From the NCBI GenBank assembly GCA_903955385.1, contig CAJBNH010000049.1, forward strand, positions 1 through 60,086: a stretch of DNA of 60,086 nucleotides. Reading direction: 5' to 3'. Each line of letters starts with the position of its first letter. Position 1 is the stretch's first letter. Below are positions 31,669 to 45,121 of the stretch, in pieces. This DNA is from an uncultured Myxococcales bacterium. Its GTDB lineage: Bacteria > Myxococcota_A > UBA9042. Made by a program: the position numbers and the translations under genes. The notes under the pieces were generated by a model. It had not been told where the DNA came from. It made no database searches and was given only the letters and a program-made list of their open reading frames with translations.

Positions 31669-31906
31669 CGCTGGCACCGAACCTTGGACCCGACGAATCC
31701 CCTGCCACCTTGACCAAAACCGCGCCACGTCGAACCCAGACTGGTGGGGTCGCGGGACCGGCGGGATAATTCTCTCTGCCCCGCTCTGTTCGCGGTGATT
31801 CGCCCGATTGGGGACTCGCGGCGGTCGGCTGGTGCTGGTATCCTTCGATGTTTCGCCCACGCCGTCGGAAGAGGCACGGCAAGACCGCCCCAACAGGAGT
31901 TTCTCG

Positions 31907-34900
31907 ATGCACGCCGCCCCGTTCCGCCAGGACTGGATCCGCCGGGTACCGCTCGCCCTGACCTGCACGCTCGCCCTGTTGCTGGCCGCATGCAGCGGCT
32001 CCAACGAGGGCAGCGAGCCCGTCGACGCGGGCCTTGCGATCGGCCTGAAGCCCGGCCAGCTCTCCCAGCTGAAGAGCGTCGAGACCACGCTGTCGTCGCT
32101 CAAGGTCGGTGCCGGCACCGACGTCACCGTCACGTGCATCGGCCAGCCGGGCGACATCGCCATCCCCATGCCCGCGTTCCAGATCACGCCCAAGGAAGGT
32201 GCGCCGTTCGCGGGCGCCATCATCACCCCGACGACCGTGGGCGCCTACGCCGTCGCGTGCAAGGCCGGCACCGCCGTCGATGCAACGCCCGAGCTGCTGA
32301 CCGTGACGCCGGGACCCGCGGCCACCATCGAGACCGCCGTTGCCCCCACCCAGATCGCTGCCGGCGAAAAGGCTGTCACCACCTGCACGGGCAAGGACAA
32401 GTACGGCAACGCGATTGCCAGTTCCGACGCCGAGTGGAAGGTCACGATCGCGCCCGAAACCTCCGGCAAGGTCGAGGGCATGTCCGTCGAGGGGCAGAAG
32501 GTCGGCACCGTCTCTGTCAGCTGCGCTCGCGCGGACGCAGCCAAGGCGGCCGTGACCGCGGCAAGTCTGCAGATCGTCGCAGGCCCCGCCTTCCAGACCG
32601 TTGCGACGGTGACACCGCCCAGCTTCGTCGCCGGCGCGGGTTCGTCCGACGTCTCGTGCGCGACCGAAGACGCTTTCGGCAACGCCGTCCAAGCGGACGC
32701 GGCCAGCTACACGATCGACGCGCCCGCGGACCTGACGCTGACCGGCAAGAAGCTCGAGTCGACGAAGTCGGGCAAGTACGACGTGACGTGCAAGGCGGCA
32801 GGCGTGGGCAAGCAGAAGGCCGCCGTCCTGGAGGTCAAGCCCGGCGCGCCCCTGTCCATGACGCTGTACGCCAAGCCGGACCAGCCGAACTACAAGATGG
32901 AGGACACCATCAAGCTGTACGGCATGGGCAAGGATTCCTTCGGCAATCCGATTCCCGACATGGCCATCGAGCAGCCGGCGGCCGTCACCCCGACCGACGG
33001 CGTGCAGGTCAACGGCGGAGGCAAGAGCTACACGTTCAAGGAGGACGGCGTCTACGTGTTCTCGGGCAAGTCCAAGGACTTCCCGACGCTGTCGGCGGAG
33101 CTCGAGCTGAAATGCGACTCGAAGGGCCCGTTGGTCATGTTCACCGAGCCCAAGCGCGGCGCGACGCTGAACGGCAACCAAGTGGTCGTGGTCAAGGGCA
33201 TGGTCGTGGACGAGCTGAGTGCCTTCAAGTCGTTCTCGATCAACGACCAGACCATCCCCGTGGGTGAGGACGGCAGCTTCTCGATGACGCTGACGGCCAA
33301 GCAGGGCATGAATCCGATCATCTGGAAGGCCAAGGACGAGTGGAGCAACGAGTCGAACGGCGTGCAGACCTTCTACTACTCCAAGACCTGGTACCCGGCC
33401 GACAACACGCAACCCGCGACCAGCCACGTCAAGAACGGCATCGGCTTCTGGATGGCGCAAGAGATCATCGACTCGGGCAAGCACGACCACAAAAGCCCCA
33501 AGGATCTCGCGACGGTGATGGAGATTGTGCTCGGGACGATGGACTTCGGCTCGCTGCTGGGCGGCGGAGCGATGCCGGTCGATCAGGGCCTTGCCTTCAA
33601 GGGCACCATCCAGATTCAAAACGTCAAGTTGGGCGATCCTGCGTTCAATGACGGCTACCCCGGCGCCGTCCTGACCGTCATCGATGGCGGCCTGCACATG
33701 GTGTTGGAGATCTACAAATTCGAGGCCGAGGTGGTGATTCAGGGCACGACCGCAGGCTTCATCCCGGTCAATCAAGTGGGCAAGATCACTGCCGACAAGG
33801 TCATCGTCGAGGCCGACATCCTGATCACGCTGGACCCCGCCACCGGCAAGGTCACCAGCGAGGCCAAGAACACCAAGGTCAAGATGGACAACTTCGGCAT
33901 CGAGCTGTCGGGCATCACCGGCACCCTGCTGAATTGGCTGATCAACTTCCTGGAGGGCACGCTCGAGACGCTGATCGAGCAGGTCATGCAGCAGCAGCTG
34001 GGCACCATGATCGGCGACACGCTGGGCAAGGCGTTCGAGATGCTGGCACTCGACCAGGACCTGCCGCTCAGTCCCTTTATCGGTACGGGCGACCCGGTGA
34101 ACTTGAAGATCCACTCGGCGCTTGGCCTGTTGTGGTTCAAGAAGCCCTCGTCGGGCGCGCCGGGCATCGTCGTCGGTCTGGATGCGTCGGTGACGGCCCC
34201 CAAGAACGTCGAGCACGACGTGCTGGGCTCCATCGGCCGCGCGGGTTGCCTGCAGGCGGGCCAGACCGAGAACTTCGTGCCGGGCCTCGACTTCCCCTTG
34301 GTGGTCGGCCTGAACGACGACTTCATCAACCAGCTGCTGCACTCGGTGTGGAATGGCGGCCTGCTCAAGCTGAAGATCGGCTCGGACGCGCTGGGCAGCG
34401 TCGACCTGTCGACCTATGGCATCAAGGACTTGGCCGTCGACACCGACTTCTGGCTGCCGCCGATCCTCAACACCTGCATCGACAAGGACGGCAAGCTCAA
34501 ACTGCAGATTGGCGACATGGGCATGCACGCCACGCTGAAGATGGGCGACACGCCGGTCGACCTGAACATGTTTGCGACGATGCAGGCGACCGCCACGCTG
34601 AAGGCCGTGGACAACAAGGTGACGGGCGCCAAGGAGCTTGGTTTCGCTCTGGAAAGCATCGACTACGTCGAACTGGAGGTCGTCAGCATCAACAAGGAAG
34701 CGGCGAACCTGAAGGACGTCTTCGTTTCGATGATCAAGACCATGCTGCTGCCCAAGCTGGTCGAGAGCCTGGGCAGCGGTCTGGGCAGCTTCCCGTTGCC
34801 GGCCATCGACTTGTCGTCGTTCTCACCCTCGATTCCGGCAGGTACGCAGCTCGCCTTGGACATCACCGAGATCGTGAACGACCTGGGCTACACCTACCTG

Positions 34901-34918
34901 CGCGGCAAGGTGAAGTGA
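31907..34918 (+). CDS. Large lipoprotein: Ig-like repeats followed by BPI/TULIP-like region
   Basis: 1003 aa. Lipobox LLLAAC at Cys29. Residues about 40-390 hold Ig-like repeats, most with one Cys pair (VTCIGQPG / VACKAG pattern). Residues about 405-490 resemble a Big-type or glucodextranase-B-like domain (TEPKRGATLNGNQVVVVKG). The last 480 residues look like a BPI/LBP-type lipid-binding fold: an amphipathic helix LLNWLINFLEGTLETLIEQV, then LNDDFINQLLHSVWNGGLLK, which is the wording of BPI domain 2, and LPAIDLSSFSPSIPAG at the end. TULIP proteins bind lipids in a tube. If right, this is a surface or periplasmic lipid-binding protein. The fold call is by pattern only. AGGAG lies 8 bases before the start. 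Confidence 0.7.
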   Translation: MHAAPFRQDWIRRVPLALTCTLALLLAACSGSNEGSEPVDAGLAIGLKPGQLSQLKSVETTLSSLKVGAGTDVTVTCIGQPGDIAIPMPAFQITPKEGAPFAGAIITPTTVGAYAVACKAGTAVDATPELLTVTPGPAATIETAVAPTQIAAGEKAVTTCTGKDKYGNAIASSDAEWKVTIAPETSGKVEGMSVEGQKVGTVSVSCARADAAKAAVTAASLQIVAGPAFQTVATVTPPSFVAGAGSSDVSCATEDAFGNAVQADAASYTIDAPADLTLTGKKLESTKSGKYDVTCKAAGVGKQKAAVLEVKPGAPLSMTLYAKPDQPNYKMEDTIKLYGMGKDSFGNPIPDMAIEQPAAVTPTDGVQVNGGGKSYTFKEDGVYVFSGKSKDFPTLSAELELKCDSKGPLVMFTEPKRGATLNGNQVVVVKGMVVDELSAFKSFSINDQTIPVGEDGSFSMTLTAKQGMNPIIWKAKDEWSNESNGVQTFYYSKTWYPADNTQPATSHVKNGIGFWMAQEIIDSGKHDHKSPKDLATVMEIVLGTMDFGSLLGGGAMPVDQGLAFKGTIQIQNVKLGDPAFNDGYPGAVLTVIDGGLHMVLEIYKFEAEVVIQGTTAGFIPVNQVGKITADKVIVEADILITLDPATGKVTSEAKNTKVKMDNFGIELSGITGTLLNWLINFLEGTLETLIEQVMQQQLGTMIGDTLGKAFEMLALDQDLPLSPFIGTGDPVNLKIHSALGLLWFKKPSSGAPGIVVGLDASVTAPKNVEHDVLGSIGRAGCLQAGQTENFVPGLDFPLVVGLNDDFINQLLHSVWNGGLLKLKIGSDALGSVDLSTYGIKDLAVDTDFWLPPILNTCIDKDGKLKLQIGDMGMHATLKMGDTPVDLNMFATMQATATLKAVDNKVTGAKELGFALESIDYVELEVVSINKEAANLKDVFVSMIKTMLLPKLVESLGSGLGSFPLPAIDLSSFSPSIPAGTQLALDITEIVNDLGYTYLRGKVK

Positions 34919-35050: not shown

Positions 35051-37471
35051 ATGACCCGTTCGCTCCTCGCCCGCCGTCTCTGTCTGTACGGTGCCCTTAC
35101 CGGGTTGGTCGCCGCCTGCGCGTCGAATCCGCCGCCCGACGTCGCCCCCGTGTCCCAGGGCGGAAAGGTCACCGTGATCGAGGAGTCGGTGGTTGACCCC
35201 ACCCAGCCGCAGGTGCTGCTGCCGGCCTACCTGACGGCTGCCGAGCACGCCGCGTTCCTGAAGTCGGACGCCGCAGCAAACTACCGCATCGCGAACAAGC
35301 AGTGGTTTGCCAACACGGTTCCGCTGGAGCAGGGCCGCTTCCGCGCCTTTCAGGAGTGGGAGGAGATGAAGGACGTCTGGATGACCTACTCGTCCGGCAC
35401 CAGCAGCAACGGCCCCGTGCGCCGTTTGTTCGCCGAACAGACGATCGCCTTCTTGCGCTACTCGACCCCGAAGATGAATGCCAAGGTCATCATTCCGGCC
35501 AAGAGCAGCGAAACGGTGTTCAAGAAGGCGCTGGTCGATTTCGGTGCGACGCCTGACGAGCTGGCGCGCGTCGAGTACGTCGTGCTGCCCAACCAGACGA
35601 TCTGGCACATCGACTACGGTCCGTTCCCGCTGGTCGACAAGACGACCAACACGCTCGCGTTCTCGGAGTTCAACTACTATCCGGAGCGGTTCATCGACGA
35701 CGCCATCCCGACCCGGCTGGCTACGGAGTACTACAAGGACATCTCGACCTACCGCATGCCGTTCGACTTCGAGGGCGGCAACCTCCAGGCCGACGGCATG
35801 GGCAACTGCGCCACGACAGTCCGGGCGCTCTCGAACACCGGCTACTCGCAGGAGAAAGTCCGCTCGCTGCTGAAGCACTGGGCCGCGTGCGAAAACACCA
35901 TCATCGTCAAGGACATCGATGACGATGGGACCGGCCACATCGACATGTTCTTCAAGTGGATCGACGTCGACCACGTCATGTTCGGCCAATACGAAGACAA
36001 CATCACGCTGGACTACAACGGCGACGGCACCGACGAGACCATCCCGCTGCCCGGGTCAAAGAACGCCGGCTACAAGGTCGCCTTCGCGCGCAACAAGCAG
36101 CGCATGGAGGACAACGTCAAGCTGTTCGAGGGCCTGACCGCTCCCAACGGCAAGAAGTACACCGTGTCCCGTCTGACCATGATGACCTGGTACAAGGACA
36201 GCTGGGGCGACCTGCCGCGCACCTTCATCAACTCGACGTTTGCGAACGGCGTCAACGCGTATCCCAGCTATGCCCCGGGCTCATGTCAGGACCCCGACGG
36301 CGCGGTCTGCATGGACGACAGCGATTGCTGCGCAAATTTCGCCGACTGCGGCCAACACTGCGCTGCCGGCAAGTGCACCAAGGGCACGACGGCGGAGGGT
36401 TGCGAAGATCTGCTGCCGTGTGAGGGCAAGAACGCCGCCAAGAAGGCCTATGTATGCGTCGACGACCCGGTCAAGGTCGCGCTGATCGCCAAGGCGCAGA
36501 AGCAGTGGGAAGTGGCCATGCCGACCTGGAAGCACGTGGGCCTGCGCGCCGACGTCACCGCAACGTGGTCCGGCGCGATCCACTGCATCACCCGCACCAT
36601 CCCCAACAAGAAGGGCGGCAAGGTGTTCGACGACGGCCAGTGCCTGAACGGCCAGTGCGATTGCGTCGAAGGCGGTACCACCCAGAAGTGCGAGACCGGC
36701 GCCGACTGCGTCGGCCCCGCGTGGCGCTGCGACTGCAACGAGTGCATGGGCACCTGCCCCAACGGCAAGGTCTGCGCGGTGGACTGGGACTGCACTGGCG
36801 TCAAGCTGGCGGGCGACCCCACCCCGGTGGCCACAACCGACGGGGCCCCCAACTACGTCCCCGGTTCCTGCAAGATCGACCCGCGTCAGGCCTGTTACGG
36901 CGGCGTCGGCCCCTGCGGCGACGTGCCTTTCGAGGGCGCGTGCAGCGGCAGCTCGTACCGCTATTGCGACAAGGGCAGCCTGAAGACGGTGGCCTGCCCC
37001 GCGGCGACGAAGAACTGCGGTTGGATCCCCGCTCAGGGTACGTCGGGCTGCAAGGCTGATGCGGCCTGCGTCGACGAGTGCACCGAAGGCCAGACGGGCT
37101 GCTCGGTGACGGGCACGCACGCTTGGACCTGCGCCAAGAGCGGCACCTGCTTTGTGCGCAAGTGGTCCGAGTGCAGCACCGTCGAGTGGTGCGACCCGAC
37201 CGCAGCCAAGTGCGTGTCCAAGACCGACGTCCAGTATTGCCCGGGCGTCGTTCCGCCGGACACGACCGACACGTCGACGACCGACACCACCGCAGCCGAC
37301 ACCGCCATCGGCGACACCGGTGCGGACACTACGGTCAAGCCCGTGACCCCGGCCGCCAGCTCGGACAGTGGCGGCTGCACCGCCGGCCCGACCGGTGGCT
37401 CGACCGGCCTTGCGTGGCTCTTCTTCGCCGCGCTCGCTCTGGTCGCGGGTCGTCGGCGCTTCGCCCGCTAG
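35051..37471 (+). CDS. Secreted agmatine deiminase/PAD-family enzyme with MYXO-CTERM-like tail, paralogue A
   Basis: 806 aa. N-terminal lipobox GLVAAC. Guanidino-modifying enzyme core: HIDYGPF with Asp188, FEGGNLQADGMG with Glu241, GTGHIDMF with His296 and Asp298, and AIHCITRT with nucleophile Cys512. A Cys-rich insertion (about 410-462, with SDCCANFADCGQHC) sits between NGVNAYPSY and the Cys loop. Downstream are more Cys-rich modules (about 530-735), a Thr/Asp linker and a tail with Cys, GLAWLFFAALALVAG and RRRFAR, like MYXO-CTERM. Expected reaction is hydrolysis of a guanidino group (arginine, agmatine or peptidyl-arginine). AGGAG lies before the ATG. Duplicated by the next gene. Confidence 0.82.
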   Translation: MTRSLLARRLCLYGALTGLVAACASNPPPDVAPVSQGGKVTVIEESVVDPTQPQVLLPAYLTAAEHAAFLKSDAAANYRIANKQWFANTVPLEQGRFRAFQEWEEMKDVWMTYSSGTSSNGPVRRLFAEQTIAFLRYSTPKMNAKVIIPAKSSETVFKKALVDFGATPDELARVEYVVLPNQTIWHIDYGPFPLVDKTTNTLAFSEFNYYPERFIDDAIPTRLATEYYKDISTYRMPFDFEGGNLQADGMGNCATTVRALSNTGYSQEKVRSLLKHWAACENTIIVKDIDDDGTGHIDMFFKWIDVDHVMFGQYEDNITLDYNGDGTDETIPLPGSKNAGYKVAFARNKQRMEDNVKLFEGLTAPNGKKYTVSRLTMMTWYKDSWGDLPRTFINSTFANGVNAYPSYAPGSCQDPDGAVCMDDSDCCANFADCGQHCAAGKCTKGTTAEGCEDLLPCEGKNAAKKAYVCVDDPVKVALIAKAQKQWEVAMPTWKHVGLRADVTATWSGAIHCITRTIPNKKGGKVFDDGQCLNGQCDCVEGGTTQKCETGADCVGPAWRCDCNECMGTCPNGKVCAVDWDCTGVKLAGDPTPVATTDGAPNYVPGSCKIDPRQACYGGVGPCGDVPFEGACSGSSYRYCDKGSLKTVACPAATKNCGWIPAQGTSGCKADAACVDECTEGQTGCSVTGTHAWTCAKSGTCFVRKWSECSTVEWCDPTAAKCVSKTDVQYCPGVVPPDTTDTSTTDTTAADTAIGDTGADTTVKPVTPAASSDSGGCTAGPTGGSTGLAWLFFAALALVAGRRRFAR

Positions 37472-37519
37472 CCCAGGCCGCGCATCAGCAGCCGCCAGTC
37501 CCCCCTTCGGAGGCCCCAC

Positions 37520-40303
37520 ATGAAGCGGATCCCTTTGCGCGCGAGCGTGTTCGTCGCGGTGGTGGCGAGCCTCGCCCTGTGCTCGGCCTGTGAGCCGCCG
37601 GTCCCTCAGACGGTGTCTGTCGGCGTGCCGGGGGTCACCGTGATCCAGGAATCGGCGGTCGATCCGGTCAAGGCGCAGGTGATGTTGCCCGCCTATGAGA
37701 CCGCGGCTGAGCGGGCCCTGTCGGTCAAGTCCGACGCGGCCAGTGACTTCCGCAAGGCCAACAAGCAGTGGTTTGCCGCCACCCAACCGCCGGAGGCCGG
37801 CCGCTTCCGCGCCTTCCAGGAGTGGGAGACGATGAAAGAGGTCTGGATGACCTACGCGGCCGGGACCAGCAGCAATCCGCCGGTCCGCAGGCTGTTCGCA
37901 GAGCAGACCATCGCGTTTGTCCGCGACTCGAACCCCAAGATGAAGGCCAAGGTCATTGTCCCCGCGGCCAGCAGCGCCACCGCATTCCTGAGTGCGATGA
38001 AGGAGTTCGGGGCGTCGGACGCCGAGCTCGCGGCCGTGGAGTTCATCGCCGTGCCCAACCAGACCATCTGGCACATCGACTACTCGCCGTTCCCGTTGGT
38101 GGACAAGGCCGCAAATACACTTGCGTTCACCGATTTCGTCTACTACGGCGAGCGGTATCTGGACGACGCGATTCCGACCCGACTGGCCACGCAGTACTAC
38201 AAGGACATCACGACCTACCGGATGCCCTTCGAGTTCGAGGGAGGCAACATTCAGGCCGACGGCATGGGCAGCTGCGCCACGACCGAGCGCGCGCTGCAGA
38301 ACACGGGCTACTCGGCGCTGAAGGTCCGCAACCTGCTGAAGAAGTACATCGCCTGCGACAAGGCCTTCATCGTCAAGGACATTACCGATGATGGCACCGG
38401 CCACATCGACATGTTCTTCAAGTGGATCGACGTCGATCACGTCTTGTTCGGCGAGTACAACGACTCGATTGCTCTGGACTACAACGGCGACGGCACCGTC
38501 GACACCATTCCGATTCCCGGTGCCAAGAACGCGGCCTACAAGCTCACGTTTGCGAAGAACAAGCAGCGGATGGAGGACAACGTCGCCCTGTTCGCCGCAA
38601 CCACCGCACCCAACGGCAAGAAGTACACGGTCTCCCGGCTGACGATGATGACCTGGTACAAGGACTCGTACGGCGACCTGCCCCGCACCTTCATCAACTC
38701 GACCTTCGCCAATGGAGTCAACGCCTACCCCAGCTACGCCGAGGGCTCATGCCAGAGCCCGACCGGCACCACCTGCATGACCGACGGCGACTGCTGCACC
38801 AACTTCAGCGACTGCAACAAGCACTGCGCCTCGGGCAAGTGCACCACCGGGCCCACCGCTGAGGGCTGCGACGAGCTGCTGCCGTGCGGATCGGGCTTGA
38901 AGTGCGTCAAGGACCCGCTGAAGGTCGCCCTGCGCGCCAAGGCCCAGCAGCAGTGGCAGGCGGCGATGCCCACCTGGAAGCACGTGGGACTGCGCGCTGA
39001 CGTCACCGCCACGTGGTCAGGCGCGATCCACTGCATCACGCGCACGATCCCCAACCTCCCCGGCAGCAAGGCGATTGCCGACGGCTACTGCGTCCAGGGC
39101 AAGTGCGGCTGCGTCACCGAAGGCACCCAGCAAGCGTGCGCGACCTCGGCCGAGTGCAGCGGCCCGGCATGGCAGTGCGACTGCAACATCTGCTCGGGCA
39201 CCTGTGCGGGCGGCAAGGCGTGTACCGACGATGCCGACTGCTCCACCGACGGAACCACCGTCGTCAAGGGCAGTTGCAGCATCAATCCGGCGCAAGGCTG
39301 CTACGGCACCGCGGGGGCAGGCGGCGACCCGTGTCAGGGCGTCTCGTACGAGGGCGTCTGCAACGGCAAGCAGCTGCTGTACTGCGACCAGACGCTGCAG
39401 CAGCAGAACTGCGGCGCCACCGAGTGCTGCGGTTGGGATGCAGCCAGCGGCTTCTACAACTGCCTGCCGGCCGCGCAATGCAAGGCGTGCGTTGCCGAAT
39501 GCCAGGTGAACACGCTCGGCTGCAGCGCCGAAGCGACCCACACCTGGACCTGCGCCAGCGTCGGCGGTTGCCTGGTCCGCCAATACTCCCCGTGCGCGGC
39601 TGGCTGTGACACGAAGACCGGGAGCTGCAAGTCCAGCAGCGGCACCCAGTGGCTGGACAAGTGCCCGGCCGACCCCGGACCGGACGCCGGGCCAACCGAC
39701 ACCGCGGATGCTGCCGACACCTCCGACACCAATCCGCCGCAAGACGTGCCAGCCGATCTGCCGCCCGCCGACACCAATCCGCCGCTGGACGTGCAGCCCG
39801 ACCTGCCGCCCGCCGACACCAATCCGCCTCAAGACGTGCAACCGGATGTGCCGCCTCAGGATACTCAGGCTGACGTGCAACCGCCCGACACCCTGCCGCC
39901 CCAGGACACGGCGCCCGACGGCCCCTGCCAACCCAACTGCTTCGGACGCCAGTGCGGCCCCAACGGCTGCGGCGGCAACTGCGGCTATTGCCTGCCGGGC
40001 TTGGACTGCGACGACAGCATCGGCAAGTGCAAGATCGCTGAGCAGACGGACACGAATCCGACGCCGGACGACACCGCGACGCGCACGGACACTCGCTCGC
40101 CCACTGACTCGGACCCGCGCACCCAGGACGGCATCCAGTCCGATACCAATCAGGGCACGACGCCGGTCTACTCGGCGCAACCGTCCAACTCGTCAGGTTG
40201 CTCGACGTCGACGCGTCCCGGATCGGGCGCTTCTGGTGCCGCGTGGCTGGGGCTCGCGCTGGTTGCCGTGGTTGTCCAGTTGCGCCGCCGCCGCTCGTGC
40301 TGA
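37520..40303 (+). CDS. Secreted agmatine deiminase/PAD-family enzyme with MYXO-CTERM-like tail, paralogue B
   Basis: 927 aa, closely related to paralogue A through the whole enzyme core and first Cys-rich region. Catalytic residues are at Asp187 (HIDYSPF, Ser replacing the Gly of A), Glu240, His295 and Cys505. The Cys-rich insertion is kept (GDCCTNFSDCNKHC). Unlike A, the tail holds three 15-residue DTNPP repeats, an extra CQPNCFGRQCGPNGCGG domain, a Thr/Asp linker, SSGC, a hydrophobic helix and RRRRSC. Signal peptide LALCSAC has a lipobox-like Cys. It starts 48 bases after paralogue A and has GGAGG upstream. The two are presumably cotranscribed. Confidence 0.82.
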   Translation: MKRIPLRASVFVAVVASLALCSACEPPVPQTVSVGVPGVTVIQESAVDPVKAQVMLPAYETAAERALSVKSDAASDFRKANKQWFAATQPPEAGRFRAFQEWETMKEVWMTYAAGTSSNPPVRRLFAEQTIAFVRDSNPKMKAKVIVPAASSATAFLSAMKEFGASDAELAAVEFIAVPNQTIWHIDYSPFPLVDKAANTLAFTDFVYYGERYLDDAIPTRLATQYYKDITTYRMPFEFEGGNIQADGMGSCATTERALQNTGYSALKVRNLLKKYIACDKAFIVKDITDDGTGHIDMFFKWIDVDHVLFGEYNDSIALDYNGDGTVDTIPIPGAKNAAYKLTFAKNKQRMEDNVALFAATTAPNGKKYTVSRLTMMTWYKDSYGDLPRTFINSTFANGVNAYPSYAEGSCQSPTGTTCMTDGDCCTNFSDCNKHCASGKCTTGPTAEGCDELLPCGSGLKCVKDPLKVALRAKAQQQWQAAMPTWKHVGLRADVTATWSGAIHCITRTIPNLPGSKAIADGYCVQGKCGCVTEGTQQACATSAECSGPAWQCDCNICSGTCAGGKACTDDADCSTDGTTVVKGSCSINPAQGCYGTAGAGGDPCQGVSYEGVCNGKQLLYCDQTLQQQNCGATECCGWDAASGFYNCLPAAQCKACVAECQVNTLGCSAEATHTWTCASVGGCLVRQYSPCAAGCDTKTGSCKSSSGTQWLDKCPADPGPDAGPTDTADAADTSDTNPPQDVPADLPPADTNPPLDVQPDLPPADTNPPQDVQPDVPPQDTQADVQPPDTLPPQDTAPDGPCQPNCFGRQCGPNGCGGNCGYCLPGLDCDDSIGKCKIAEQTDTNPTPDDTATRTDTRSPTDSDPRTQDGIQSDTNQGTTPVYSAQPSNSSGCSTSTRPGSGASGAAWLGLALVAVVVQLRRRRSC
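39725..39859 (+). repeat. Three 45-bp tandem repeats in paralogue B
   Basis: Copies begin at 39725, 39770 and 39815. Each starts gacaccaatccgcc and encodes a DTNPP, Asp-rich, Pro-rich 15-residue unit of the linker. Confidence 0.85.
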
Positions 40304-40338: not shown

Positions 40339-41322
40339 TCAGCCGACGACCCCGTGAGAGGTCGCCTCCACGCCGCCGTCGAACACTTCGGTGCGCAGCG
40401 CGGCGCGGACCGCCTCAGCCACACCAAACCGCGGACGAAACTGCAGCTGGGAGCGGGCGCGACTTCCGTCCAGCGTCGCCGCATAGCGCAGATAGTCGGT
40501 TTCGGCCGCAGGAAAGTCTGCGAAACGAAAACGGAATAGGCGGTCAGCCACCCCTGGCGCCAGAAAGTGCGGCAGCTCGATGCGTGGCCGCCCCGTCAGC
40601 CCGACCAGCGTGCGCAGCGGCAGCGCCTCAGGGCCGACCACGTTGAACACACCGCGAACGCCGGGCCGCGCCGCGGCAAGAATCGCCGTGACCGCGTCCT
40701 CCTCGTGCAACACCTGAAGCAGCGGGTCGAAGCCCATCAGCACGGGAATCCGCTGCAGCCGCAGGTAGTTCGAGATCGCGTTGTTCACGCCGCCCAAGAT
40801 GTGCGCCGGCCGCAGCACCACGGTCTCGATCTCCGGGTACTTCCAGAAGTACGACTGCGCAAACATGTCGACGGCAATCAGATCCCGCAGCGCCGCGAAC
40901 CGCTGGGCGCCCAGCAGCGGGGCGTCCTCCGTGATGAAGGCCGGGTTGTCGGCCATCGCTCCGTACACGTCGGCGGTCGACAGGATCACGACCTTGGGCA
41001 CACCGTAACGTTGGGCGAACTCCAGGATCTGCTGGGTTCCCAAGAGGTTCCACGAGTGGTGCTCGCCCGAACCCTTGCGCGGGTCGTGCATCAGTCCCAG
41101 GTGGTAGATGACGTCGACCTTGCGGGTGCGGAACAGGTCCTCGCAAGCCTTGCGCCGGATGTCGATGCGCAGGTGCTCGATGTCCGCGGGCCGTCGCGTA
41201 AACGCCCGGCGGTCGATGCCGATGACCCGCGTGCCCTCGCGCCGGTGCAGACGTCGCGCCAGCAGCTGCCCCAGCCGCCCGCTGATGCCTGTCACCACCG
41301 CCAAGGTCTTCTTGCGTGCCAT
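40339..41322 (-). CDS. Extended SDR-family protein (NAD-dependent epimerase/dehydratase-like)
   Basis: 327 aa. Rossmann N-terminus with GISGRLGQL (GxxGxxG), ID after the second strand, and STADVYG near residue 115. The catalytic YxxxK is replaced by FAALR (Phe142-Arg146), so the usual proton relay is absent and the protein may bind rather than reduce its ligand. It follows the acyltransferase gene by 18 bases on the same strand. Downstream of it is the convergent end of paralogue B. Substrate unknown; a lipid or sugar-lipid is suggested only by the neighbour. Confidence 0.85.
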   Translation of the reverse strand: MARKKTLAVVTGISGRLGQLLARRLHRREGTRVIGIDRRAFTRRPADIEHLRIDIRRKACEDLFRTRKVDVIYHLGLMHDPRKGSGEHHSWNLLGTQQILEFAQRYGVPKVVILSTADVYGAMADNPAFITEDAPLLGAQRFAALRDLIAVDMFAQSYFWKYPEIETVVLRPAHILGGVNNAISNYLRLQRIPVLMGFDPLLQVLHEEDAVTAILAAARPGVRGVFNVVGPEALPLRTLVGLTGRPRIELPHFLAPGVADRLFRFRFADFPAAETDYLRYAATLDGSRARSQLQFRPRFGVAEAVRAALRTEVFDGGVEATSHGVVG

Positions 41323-41340
41323 CGGGTCCTTCTCGCCGTC

Positions 41341-42348
41341 CTAAATGAACCAGCCCTTCCGCTCAGCCAGCCCTCGGTCGAGCATACGCTGGATCGAGCC
41401 GCGAACCTCTGCGACCTTGCTCGCAATCACCGCCTCGTCGTCGTCCGGGTCGCCCTCGAACCGAAGCGGCTCGCCGTAGTAGATGCGGTACTTCACCGGA
41501 CTCGGGACCAGCGACAACGGCCCCAGCAGAGGCGTCAGCGGCGTGATCGGCATCGCGGGGGAGCGCAACGCCTTGGCCAACCAGTGGAAATCGAACAGCT
41601 GTAGCGTCTGTTCCTCCGCACCGACGACGGCCACGGGCACGATCGGCGTGTCGGTGCGCAGCGCCAGACGCATGAACCCGTGGCCAAATGGCGTCATGCG
41701 ATAGCGGTCGCGAAACGGCTTGGACACGCCGCGCGCACCCTCCGGGAACACGACCACGCACTCCTCAGCCTCCAGCAGCCGGCGCGCGTTGTCCGGCAGC
41801 CCCGTCACCTGGCCGCAGCGCAAGATGAACTCGCCAAAGAACGGCAGCGAGGTCGCGAACTTCTCGACCATCGACCGCATCATGCGCGGCGGATCGCGGT
41901 CCAGGAACAGCCCTGCGCCGATCATCGCTCCGTCGAACGGCAGCTGACCGCTGTGGTTACCGACGATCAGGCAGCGCCCCGACGGCACCCGGTGGATGTC
42001 GTGCGCCTCGACCCGAAACCACACGCGGTACATGAACTCGAGGATCGGAACGATGCCCCGCATCCGCTCTGGCGCAAAGCCGAAGGGGTCCGTGCCGAAT
42101 TCACTGAGGTTCTCGTTGGACAGCAGGTGGGCAATGCGCCTGTCCAGCTCCTCTCGAGGCAGCTGATACCCGCCGGGGGCCAGCAACAGGGTCGCAAGCT
42201 CCGACGCCATGCCCGACGCCTCGCGCGCCATCCGGTCCGTCAGGCTGCGCCGGTGGTGTGGCTCAGTCCAGTCGACAAGCTGCTGCGAAAGCGCCATGCC
42301 AATGCGCTGCAACTTCTCGATATTCTGTAGGAACTCGCTGCGTGGCAT
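41341..42348 (-). CDS. 1-acyl-glycerol-3-phosphate acyltransferase family protein (PlsC-like)
   Basis: 335 aa. Acyltransferase motifs: NHSGQLPFD (NHx5D type, block I), FPEGARG (block III) and IVPVAVVGAEE (block IV). An N-terminal helical region of about 90 residues precedes the fold, so it is longer than plain PlsC and may act on another lysolipid. The ATG at 42348 fits the folded start; the frame-open extension to 42648 lies in the gyrB promoter region and is ruled out. First gene of a two-gene minus-strand unit. Confidence 0.88.
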   Translation of the reverse strand: MPRSEFLQNIEKLQRIGMALSQQLVDWTEPHHRRSLTDRMAREASGMASELATLLLAPGGYQLPREELDRRIAHLLSNENLSEFGTDPFGFAPERMRGIVPILEFMYRVWFRVEAHDIHRVPSGRCLIVGNHSGQLPFDGAMIGAGLFLDRDPPRMMRSMVEKFATSLPFFGEFILRCGQVTGLPDNARRLLEAEECVVVFPEGARGVSKPFRDRYRMTPFGHGFMRLALRTDTPIVPVAVVGAEEQTLQLFDFHWLAKALRSPAMPITPLTPLLGPLSLVPSPVKYRIYYGEPLRFEGDPDDDEAVIASKVAEVRGSIQRMLDRGLAERKGWFI

Positions 42349-42453
42349 GGGCGGTTGGCGCAACTCCTGCTGTGGCGGGGGAAGGTGCCGACAGTGGCGC
42401 AGAACGGGAGCGGATTCAAGCCCCTTGGCAGCCGAACACAGGCCTCGCGAAGC

Positions 42454-42482
42454 TTGTCGAAACGGGCGATTTGTGCTAGGAT
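42454..42482 (+). promoter_or_regulatory. Predicted sigma70-type promoter of gyrB
   Basis: TTGTCG, a 17-base spacer and TAGGAT lie about 155 bases upstream of the gyrB start. The long 5' leader that would result (about 150 bases) shows no clear structure by eye. Confidence 0.5.
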
Positions 42483-42634
42483 TCACGCCCTTGAGTCGCG
42501 CACCAATCCCTCGGAATCGTGCGACTTTTCGACCCCTCCCCAGAGGGCCGGGGCCGACCGACAGGCCCCCTGCACCCCGGCAACCCCGGTTGCCCGCACC
42601 GACGCCCCTTGTGGCGGTGCCCTTGGAGACGTGA

Positions 42635-45121
<2,487 letters not shown>

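Follow-up and report, generated by a model that had tools for sequence, protein, structure and literature searches.

The PPAD, PADI and agmatine deiminase (AgDI) families are already known. PADIs have been reported in bacteria including Proteobacteria, and the PPAD and PADI types are phyletically distinct (PMC8826395). In PPAD from Porphyromonas gingivalis, the active site lies in a funnel at the entry base of the fold; the middle strand of each blade reaches that base, and a loop then joins it to the helix (PMC4487231). PPAD holds the C-terminal carboxylate of its substrate with R152 and Y233, and a longer chain, as in an endo substrate, would collide with them (PMC4487231). Removal of R152 abolishes PPAD activity on C-terminal Arg, while the contact between R154 and a peptide carbonyl is the main factor favouring peptidyl-arginine over free arginine (PMC4487231). 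Animal PADs retain both arginines (R372/R374), human PAD4 has a Ser at the Y233 position that leaves room for internal arginines, and the active sites of AgDI and arginine deiminase (ADI) are completely closed (PMC4487231). In Myxococcus, the MYXO-CTERM tag directs surface display that depends on the T2SS (PMC11980579). A literature search for Myxococcota peptidylarginine deiminases returned, among the papers it covered, nothing on the enzymes, the insertion or the locus analysed here.

We analysed a 60,086-nucleotide stretch of DNA (the window) from an uncultured Myxococcales bacterium, in which two tandem genes, P1 and P2, follow a lipoprotein gene. The relatives used for comparison were draft genomes or metagenome bins, and the family set comprised 22 genomes. 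The features of the locus are:

31808-34918, plus strand: partner lipoprotein, N-terminal Ig-like domains plus a predicted two-domain BPI/CETP (TULIP) fold (Glucodextran_B above cut-off; model matches BPI/CETP)
35051-37471, plus strand: P1, first of the two tandem PPAD-like deiminases, exported and bearing the Cys-module insertion, 806 aa (PF04371 E 6.9e-25; nearest PDB entry PPAD)
35612-35614, plus strand: P1 Asp188 (WHID), PPAD D130 equivalent (motif scan; alignment to PPAD)
35771-35773, plus strand: P1 Glu241 (EGGN) (motif scan; family alignment)
35936-35938, plus strand: P1 His296 (GHIDM), PPAD H236 equivalent (motif scan; PPAD alignment/profile)
36269-36469, plus strand: P1 Cys-rich insertion of 67 aa, with two Cys in addition to the eight that are invariant in the family (module profile E 6.5e-20)
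36584-36586, plus strand: P1 Cys512, catalytic nucleophile, PPAD C351 equivalent (motif scan; profile match to PPAD)
36611-37255 (approximate limits), plus strand: P1 C-terminal Cys-rich modules (translation, family alignment)
37367-37459, plus strand: P1 MYXO-CTERM sorting tag, residues 773-803 (TIGR03901 26.3 bits, cut-off 20)
37520-40303, plus strand: P2, second of the two tandem PPAD-like deiminases, exported and bearing the Cys-module insertion, 927 aa (PF04371 E 1.1e-27)
38078-38080, plus strand: P2 Asp187 (WHID) (motif scan)
38237-38239, plus strand: P2 Glu240 (EGGN) (motif scan)
38402-38404, plus strand: P2 His295 (GHIDM) (motif scan)
38735-38917, plus strand: P2 Cys-rich insertion, 61 aa (module profile E 4.6e-22)
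39032-39034, plus strand: P2 Cys505, catalytic nucleophile (motif scan)
40196-40297, plus strand: P2 MYXO-CTERM sorting tag (TIGR03901 24.0 bits, cut-off 20)
40339-42648, minus strand: flanking NAD-dependent epimerase (40339-41322) and acyltransferase (41341-42648) (Pfam; same in PADI-only genomes G005, G055 and G045)
42638-45121, plus strand: flanking gyrB (Pfam; same position in G005, G088 and G181)

P1 begins with an ATG preceded by CAGGAG, and P1 and P2 start 132 and 48 bases, respectively, past the end of their upstream plus-strand neighbours. Each protein starts with an export signal, followed by a PF04371 domain and Cys-rich modules; an acidic linker rich in Thr, Asp and Pro then leads to a MYXO-CTERM tag with its Cys, transmembrane helix and basic end. 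The P1 signal contains a lipobox-like VAAC (Cys23); that of P2 is weaker. The secreted, surface location proposed for both enzymes in a preliminary description of this DNA is supported by these export signals and the above-cut-off tags, and the further Cys-rich modules that it noted behind the insertion are present in both translations. As in several family members, the combination of a lipobox-like N-terminal Cys (35051-35120) with MYXO-CTERM (37367-37459) in P1 predicts two lipid anchors.

Both proteins matched PF04371 (PAD_porph) far above its gathering cut-off of 25 (88.4 bits for P1, 97.6 for P2), in agreement with the guanidino-modifying class first assigned to them. The Pfam scan of P1 and P2 yielded this family only, and the animal-type PADI domain PF03068 was absent. 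The TIGR03380 agmatine deiminase equivalog gave 38.3 bits for P1 and 43.9 for P2 against a cut-off of 381.8, and the agmatine deiminase equivalog models together gave 38-44 bits against cut-offs of 382-483. An ordinary agmatine deiminase was rejected on this score and on the gene context. When searched against the PDB, the family profile matched PPAD at 2.6e-20 and the best other PF04371 structure, 1xkn, at 3.9e-13. An AlphaFold model of P2, built from 15 sequences and of only moderate confidence in the catalytic loops, superposed on agmatine deiminase and PPAD structures with Z 31-35, against Z 20-22 for human PADs; when ranked by whole-fold Z, agmatine deiminases equalled or outranked PPAD. 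Its mean pLDDT was 68, with 71-89 in the insertion blocks and 54-71 around the catalytic residues. The genome has a third PF04371 gene (G000:C172, L001:1498-2640), agmatine-deiminase-like, with a twin-arginine-like signal and a lipobox, which scored 300 bits as an agmatine deiminase, under the AguA equivalog cut-off.

The motif scan placed the catalytic Asp188/187, Glu241/240, His296/295 and Cys512/505 at exactly the positions given in the preliminary description, and none of the four varies among the 15 aligned family sequences. The active-site set also includes the guanidinium-binding Asp of HID (Asp298/297, equivalent to PPAD D238). The Asn of FINS, matched by position, probably corresponds to PPAD N297; this Asn and the four residues above are invariant across all insertion-bearing sequences. 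P1 and P2 thereby resemble PPAD (4yt9, 5ak7), which shares their five-bladed fold, catalytic D130/H236/D238/N297/C351, R154 and a secreted, surface-associated state, but have the EGGN Glu where PPAD has Thr, and have Cys modules and MYXO-CTERM instead of the PPAD IgSF domain and T9SS signal. With agmatine deiminases (AguA, TIGR03380; 6nib, 2jer) they share the fold and the EGGN/HID/HCIT motifs. Unlike these enzymes, however, they have WHID rather than WxRDxGP, are exported, carry an insertion and lie in a PADI-linked context, besides falling far under the equivalog cut-off.

Residues that set the specificity of PPAD were mapped onto P1 and P2. PPAD D130, H236, D238, C351 and R154 are all retained, and the R154 position is Arg in 24 of 24 aligned sequences. 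The R152 and Y233 pair that marks PPAD proper is replaced in every insertion-bearing member, with a residue other than Arg at the first position and Gly at the second; in G011, a relative lacking the insertion, the R152 position is Arg. As R152 loss abolishes PPAD activity on C-terminal Arg, substrate binding in P1 and P2 must therefore differ. Since R154 is kept and both R152 and Y233 are lost, we predict from the aligned residues that P1 and P2 act endo, on internal arginines. They resemble animal-type PADI (PF03068) in superfamily chemistry, in the retained R374 equivalent and in the small residue at the Y233 position, but the fold similarity is remote (~10% identity, Z 20-22), the R372 equivalent is missing and there is no PAD_M.

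The gene upstream of P1 encodes a lipoprotein whose true start is likely near the ATG at 31907, with an LLAAC lipobox. Its model (mean pLDDT 69) matched BPI (1ewf, E 7.5e-18) and aligned with CETP over 405 residues at Z 16.9 and rmsd 4.1, predicting a two-domain TULIP fold, and PF01273 (LBP_BPI_CETP) scored 26.4 bits, just below its gathering cut-off of 28.8. It differs from BPI, LBP and CETP in being a bacterial lipoprotein with Ig-like N-terminal domains, and its presence distinguishes the P1/P2 locus from that of PPAD. All 52 class genomes had homologues, frequently several each, and each family genome also has further, more distant ones. Neither a PADI nor a P2-like gene lay near the four class-level homologues that we inspected.

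A close homologue of this lipoprotein, with the next gene readable, was present in 19 of the 22 family genomes. In all 19 the next gene belonged to a protein-arginine deiminase family: PADI (PF03068) in 12 and PPAD-like in seven. In G005, lipoprotein and PADI are followed by HEAT, epimerase, acyltransferase and gyrB; the window has P1 and P2 after the lipoprotein and then the same three flanking genes, from epimerase to gyrB. A PADI search that was positive in 15 of 22 family genomes gave no match in the window genome (95.6% complete; an unassembled PADI is possible). With the same lipoprotein, the same flank and no detectable PADI, P1 and P2 thus occupy the PADI slot. Family genomes without PADI usually have two PPAD-like copies, and the PADI catalytic motifs are intact in most loci. 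The locus exchange suggests that PADI and PPAD-like enzymes serve one and the same function on extracellular proteins. Five genomes (G070, G148, G114, G075 and G191) have the order lipoprotein, PADI, HEAT, PPAD-like, and as both enzymes stand side by side there, the two need not be equivalent. Two genomes carry PADI away from the lipoprotein slot. The lipoprotein tree, which omitted several PADI-only genomes, did not place the root and gave no direction for the exchange. Agmatine, free arginine and peptidyl-arginine had all been left open as substrates in the preliminary description; taken together, sequence, active site and gene order now point towards peptidyl-arginine.

Animal-type PADI lipoproteins with PF03068 and traces of PAD_M occur in Myxococcota (L040:2854-4902, L042:2669-4804, L035 and L039), with the motifs WTQD, GHIDE/GHVDE and HCGTN. 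A secreted HEAT-repeat protein (L081:6578-7552) follows PADI in 14 of 14 loci with downstream sequence, even where PADI sits apart from the lipoprotein (L091). This gene was not detected in the window genome (95.6% complete).

The Cys-rich insertion lies after the blade-V strand (NGVNAYPSY) and before the helix that precedes the catalytic HCIT loop. Its presence inside the catalytic domain and its position were as first described; its size, put at about 50 residues, was measured at 56-67 aa. PPAD has no such eight-Cys insertion in blade V. The eight Cys are invariant in 15 of 15 family members, and P1 and P2 have two more. From TFINS to HCIT the distance is 130 aa in P1, 124 aa in P2, 119 aa for the majority of the family and ~65 aa in the class-level relatives L013 and L014, whose enzyme lacks the module. 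A comparison with and without the insertion is therefore available inside one clade. In a tandem copy from G181 (L037:2757-5153), the module is split by an extra Cys-rich stretch and the same distance is 176 aa, so the module can expand within its site.

A profile search for the insertion in relatives, proposed in the preliminary description, found 17 full-length copies of the eight-Cys module, every one in PPAD-like genes of the same taxonomic family. We rejected a widespread domain, as the full profile matched strongly only these genes; partial, weak matches (E 1e-5 to 1e-3) occurred in other large Cys-rich proteins. A PDB search with the module gave chance-level Dickkopf matches and nothing better. 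The Dickkopf_N, DUF7107 and EB profiles matched 12-13 of 15 insertions weakly (best E 1e-4 to 6e-4), a similarity which suggests that the insertion may be a common type of extracellular disulfide module. By PPAD topology, it would emerge at the substrate-entry face, at the end of blade V; the loop that bears it is not listed among those framing the PPAD funnel (PMC4487231). The eight-Cys module and the C-terminal Cys modules most likely serve in substrate docking or active-site gating, which is the weakest step of our argument.

P1 and P2 were sisters in the tree (support 1.0) and 67% identical over the aligned part, and the tandem pairs of G050, G138, G189 and G181 branched separately from them. 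Between P1 and P2, dN/dS was lowest in the core (~0.29), higher in the insertion (~0.37) and highest in the C-terminal modules (~0.51). These data confirm a lineage-specific duplication under purifying selection. Thus, the tandem duplication in the preliminary description held, while the specialisation it proposed is only suggested, by the faster-evolving C-terminal modules.

Our main reading, to which we give a probability of roughly 0.6, is that P1 and P2 are surface endo-type protein-arginine deiminases on a PPAD scaffold, in a citrullination unit with the BPI-like lipoprotein. It builds on the fold, motifs, export tags, locus exchange and duplication obtained by computation; we infer the activity, the endo-specificity and the functions of module and lipoprotein. 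P1 and P2 would be exported by Sec, processed at the MYXO-CTERM tag and displayed outside the cell. There they would convert arginine in polypeptides to citrulline through Cys-thiouronium chemistry, using Cys512/505, His296/295, Asp188/187, Asp298/297 and the FINS Asn. Deimination would be endo, functionally PADI-like on a PPAD scaffold that has kept R154 and lost R152 and Y233. The BPI/CETP-fold lipoprotein would be the operon partner in a surface citrullination unit whose enzyme is either PADI or PPAD-like; in the window lineage a PPAD-like gene would have come to occupy the PADI slot, with duplication afterwards. Possible substrates include surface proteins of the cell itself, proteins of prey or competitors, and cationic peptides.

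Among characterised enzymes PPAD is closest in sequence, and R154 is retained, so P1 and P2 might instead be exo-type enzymes that citrullinate only C-terminal arginines left by surface proteases. We judge this improbable: R152, indispensable in PPAD, and Y233, which both take part in recognising the C-terminal carboxylate there (PMC4487231), are absent in all insertion-bearing members, the slot contains no protease gene, and the gene that alternates with the PPAD-like one is PADI, from a family of endodeiminases. An extracellular agmatine or free-arginine deiminase serving nitrogen or acid-stress physiology would fit the EGGN/HID/HCIT signature, including the Glu missing from PPAD, and the high fold Z of the P2 model to AgDI. 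Yet AgDI and ADI active sites are completely closed (PMC4487231), and a free-substrate role is disfavoured because of the failed equivalog test, the separate exported AgDI-like gene scoring 300 bits and the locus exchange with PADI; we consider it very improbable.

In an adhesin or scaffold, the deiminase fold would be kept, catalysis would be irrelevant and the Cys modules would be the working part. The modules are many and the C-terminal ones diverge fastest, but all catalytic residues are invariant across the family and the core is under stronger purifying selection, which makes this reading barely credible. A different question is whether one enzyme has functionally replaced the other, since PADI and PPAD-like genes might share the slot through separate ties to the BPI-like lipoprotein, for example with different substrates. 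The five genomes with PADI-HEAT and PPAD-like together and the two with PADI elsewhere speak for such separate ties. However, at least one arginine-deiminase family adjoins the lipoprotein in every readable genome, and PADI-less genomes usually have two PPAD-like copies; we regard separate ties as unlikely, if worth keeping in view. The surface endo-deiminase reading can be extended, tentatively and with slightly less than even confidence, to a Myxococcota surface citrullination unit made up of a BPI/CETP-like lipid-binding lipoprotein and a deiminase from either of two subfamilies. In the window lineage, a PPAD scaffold re-tuned from exo to endo and equipped with an eight-Cys docking module would have displaced the animal-type PADI.

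Bacterial protein citrullination is known mainly from the enzyme of one oral pathogen. Free-living bacteria with a fixed locus where PADI and PPAD-like enzymes alternate next to a BPI/CETP-fold lipoprotein offer a concrete, testable setting for finding out which substrates bacteria citrullinate and to what end, and P1 and P2 provide a second possible endo-deiminase scaffold to compare with PADI and PPAD.
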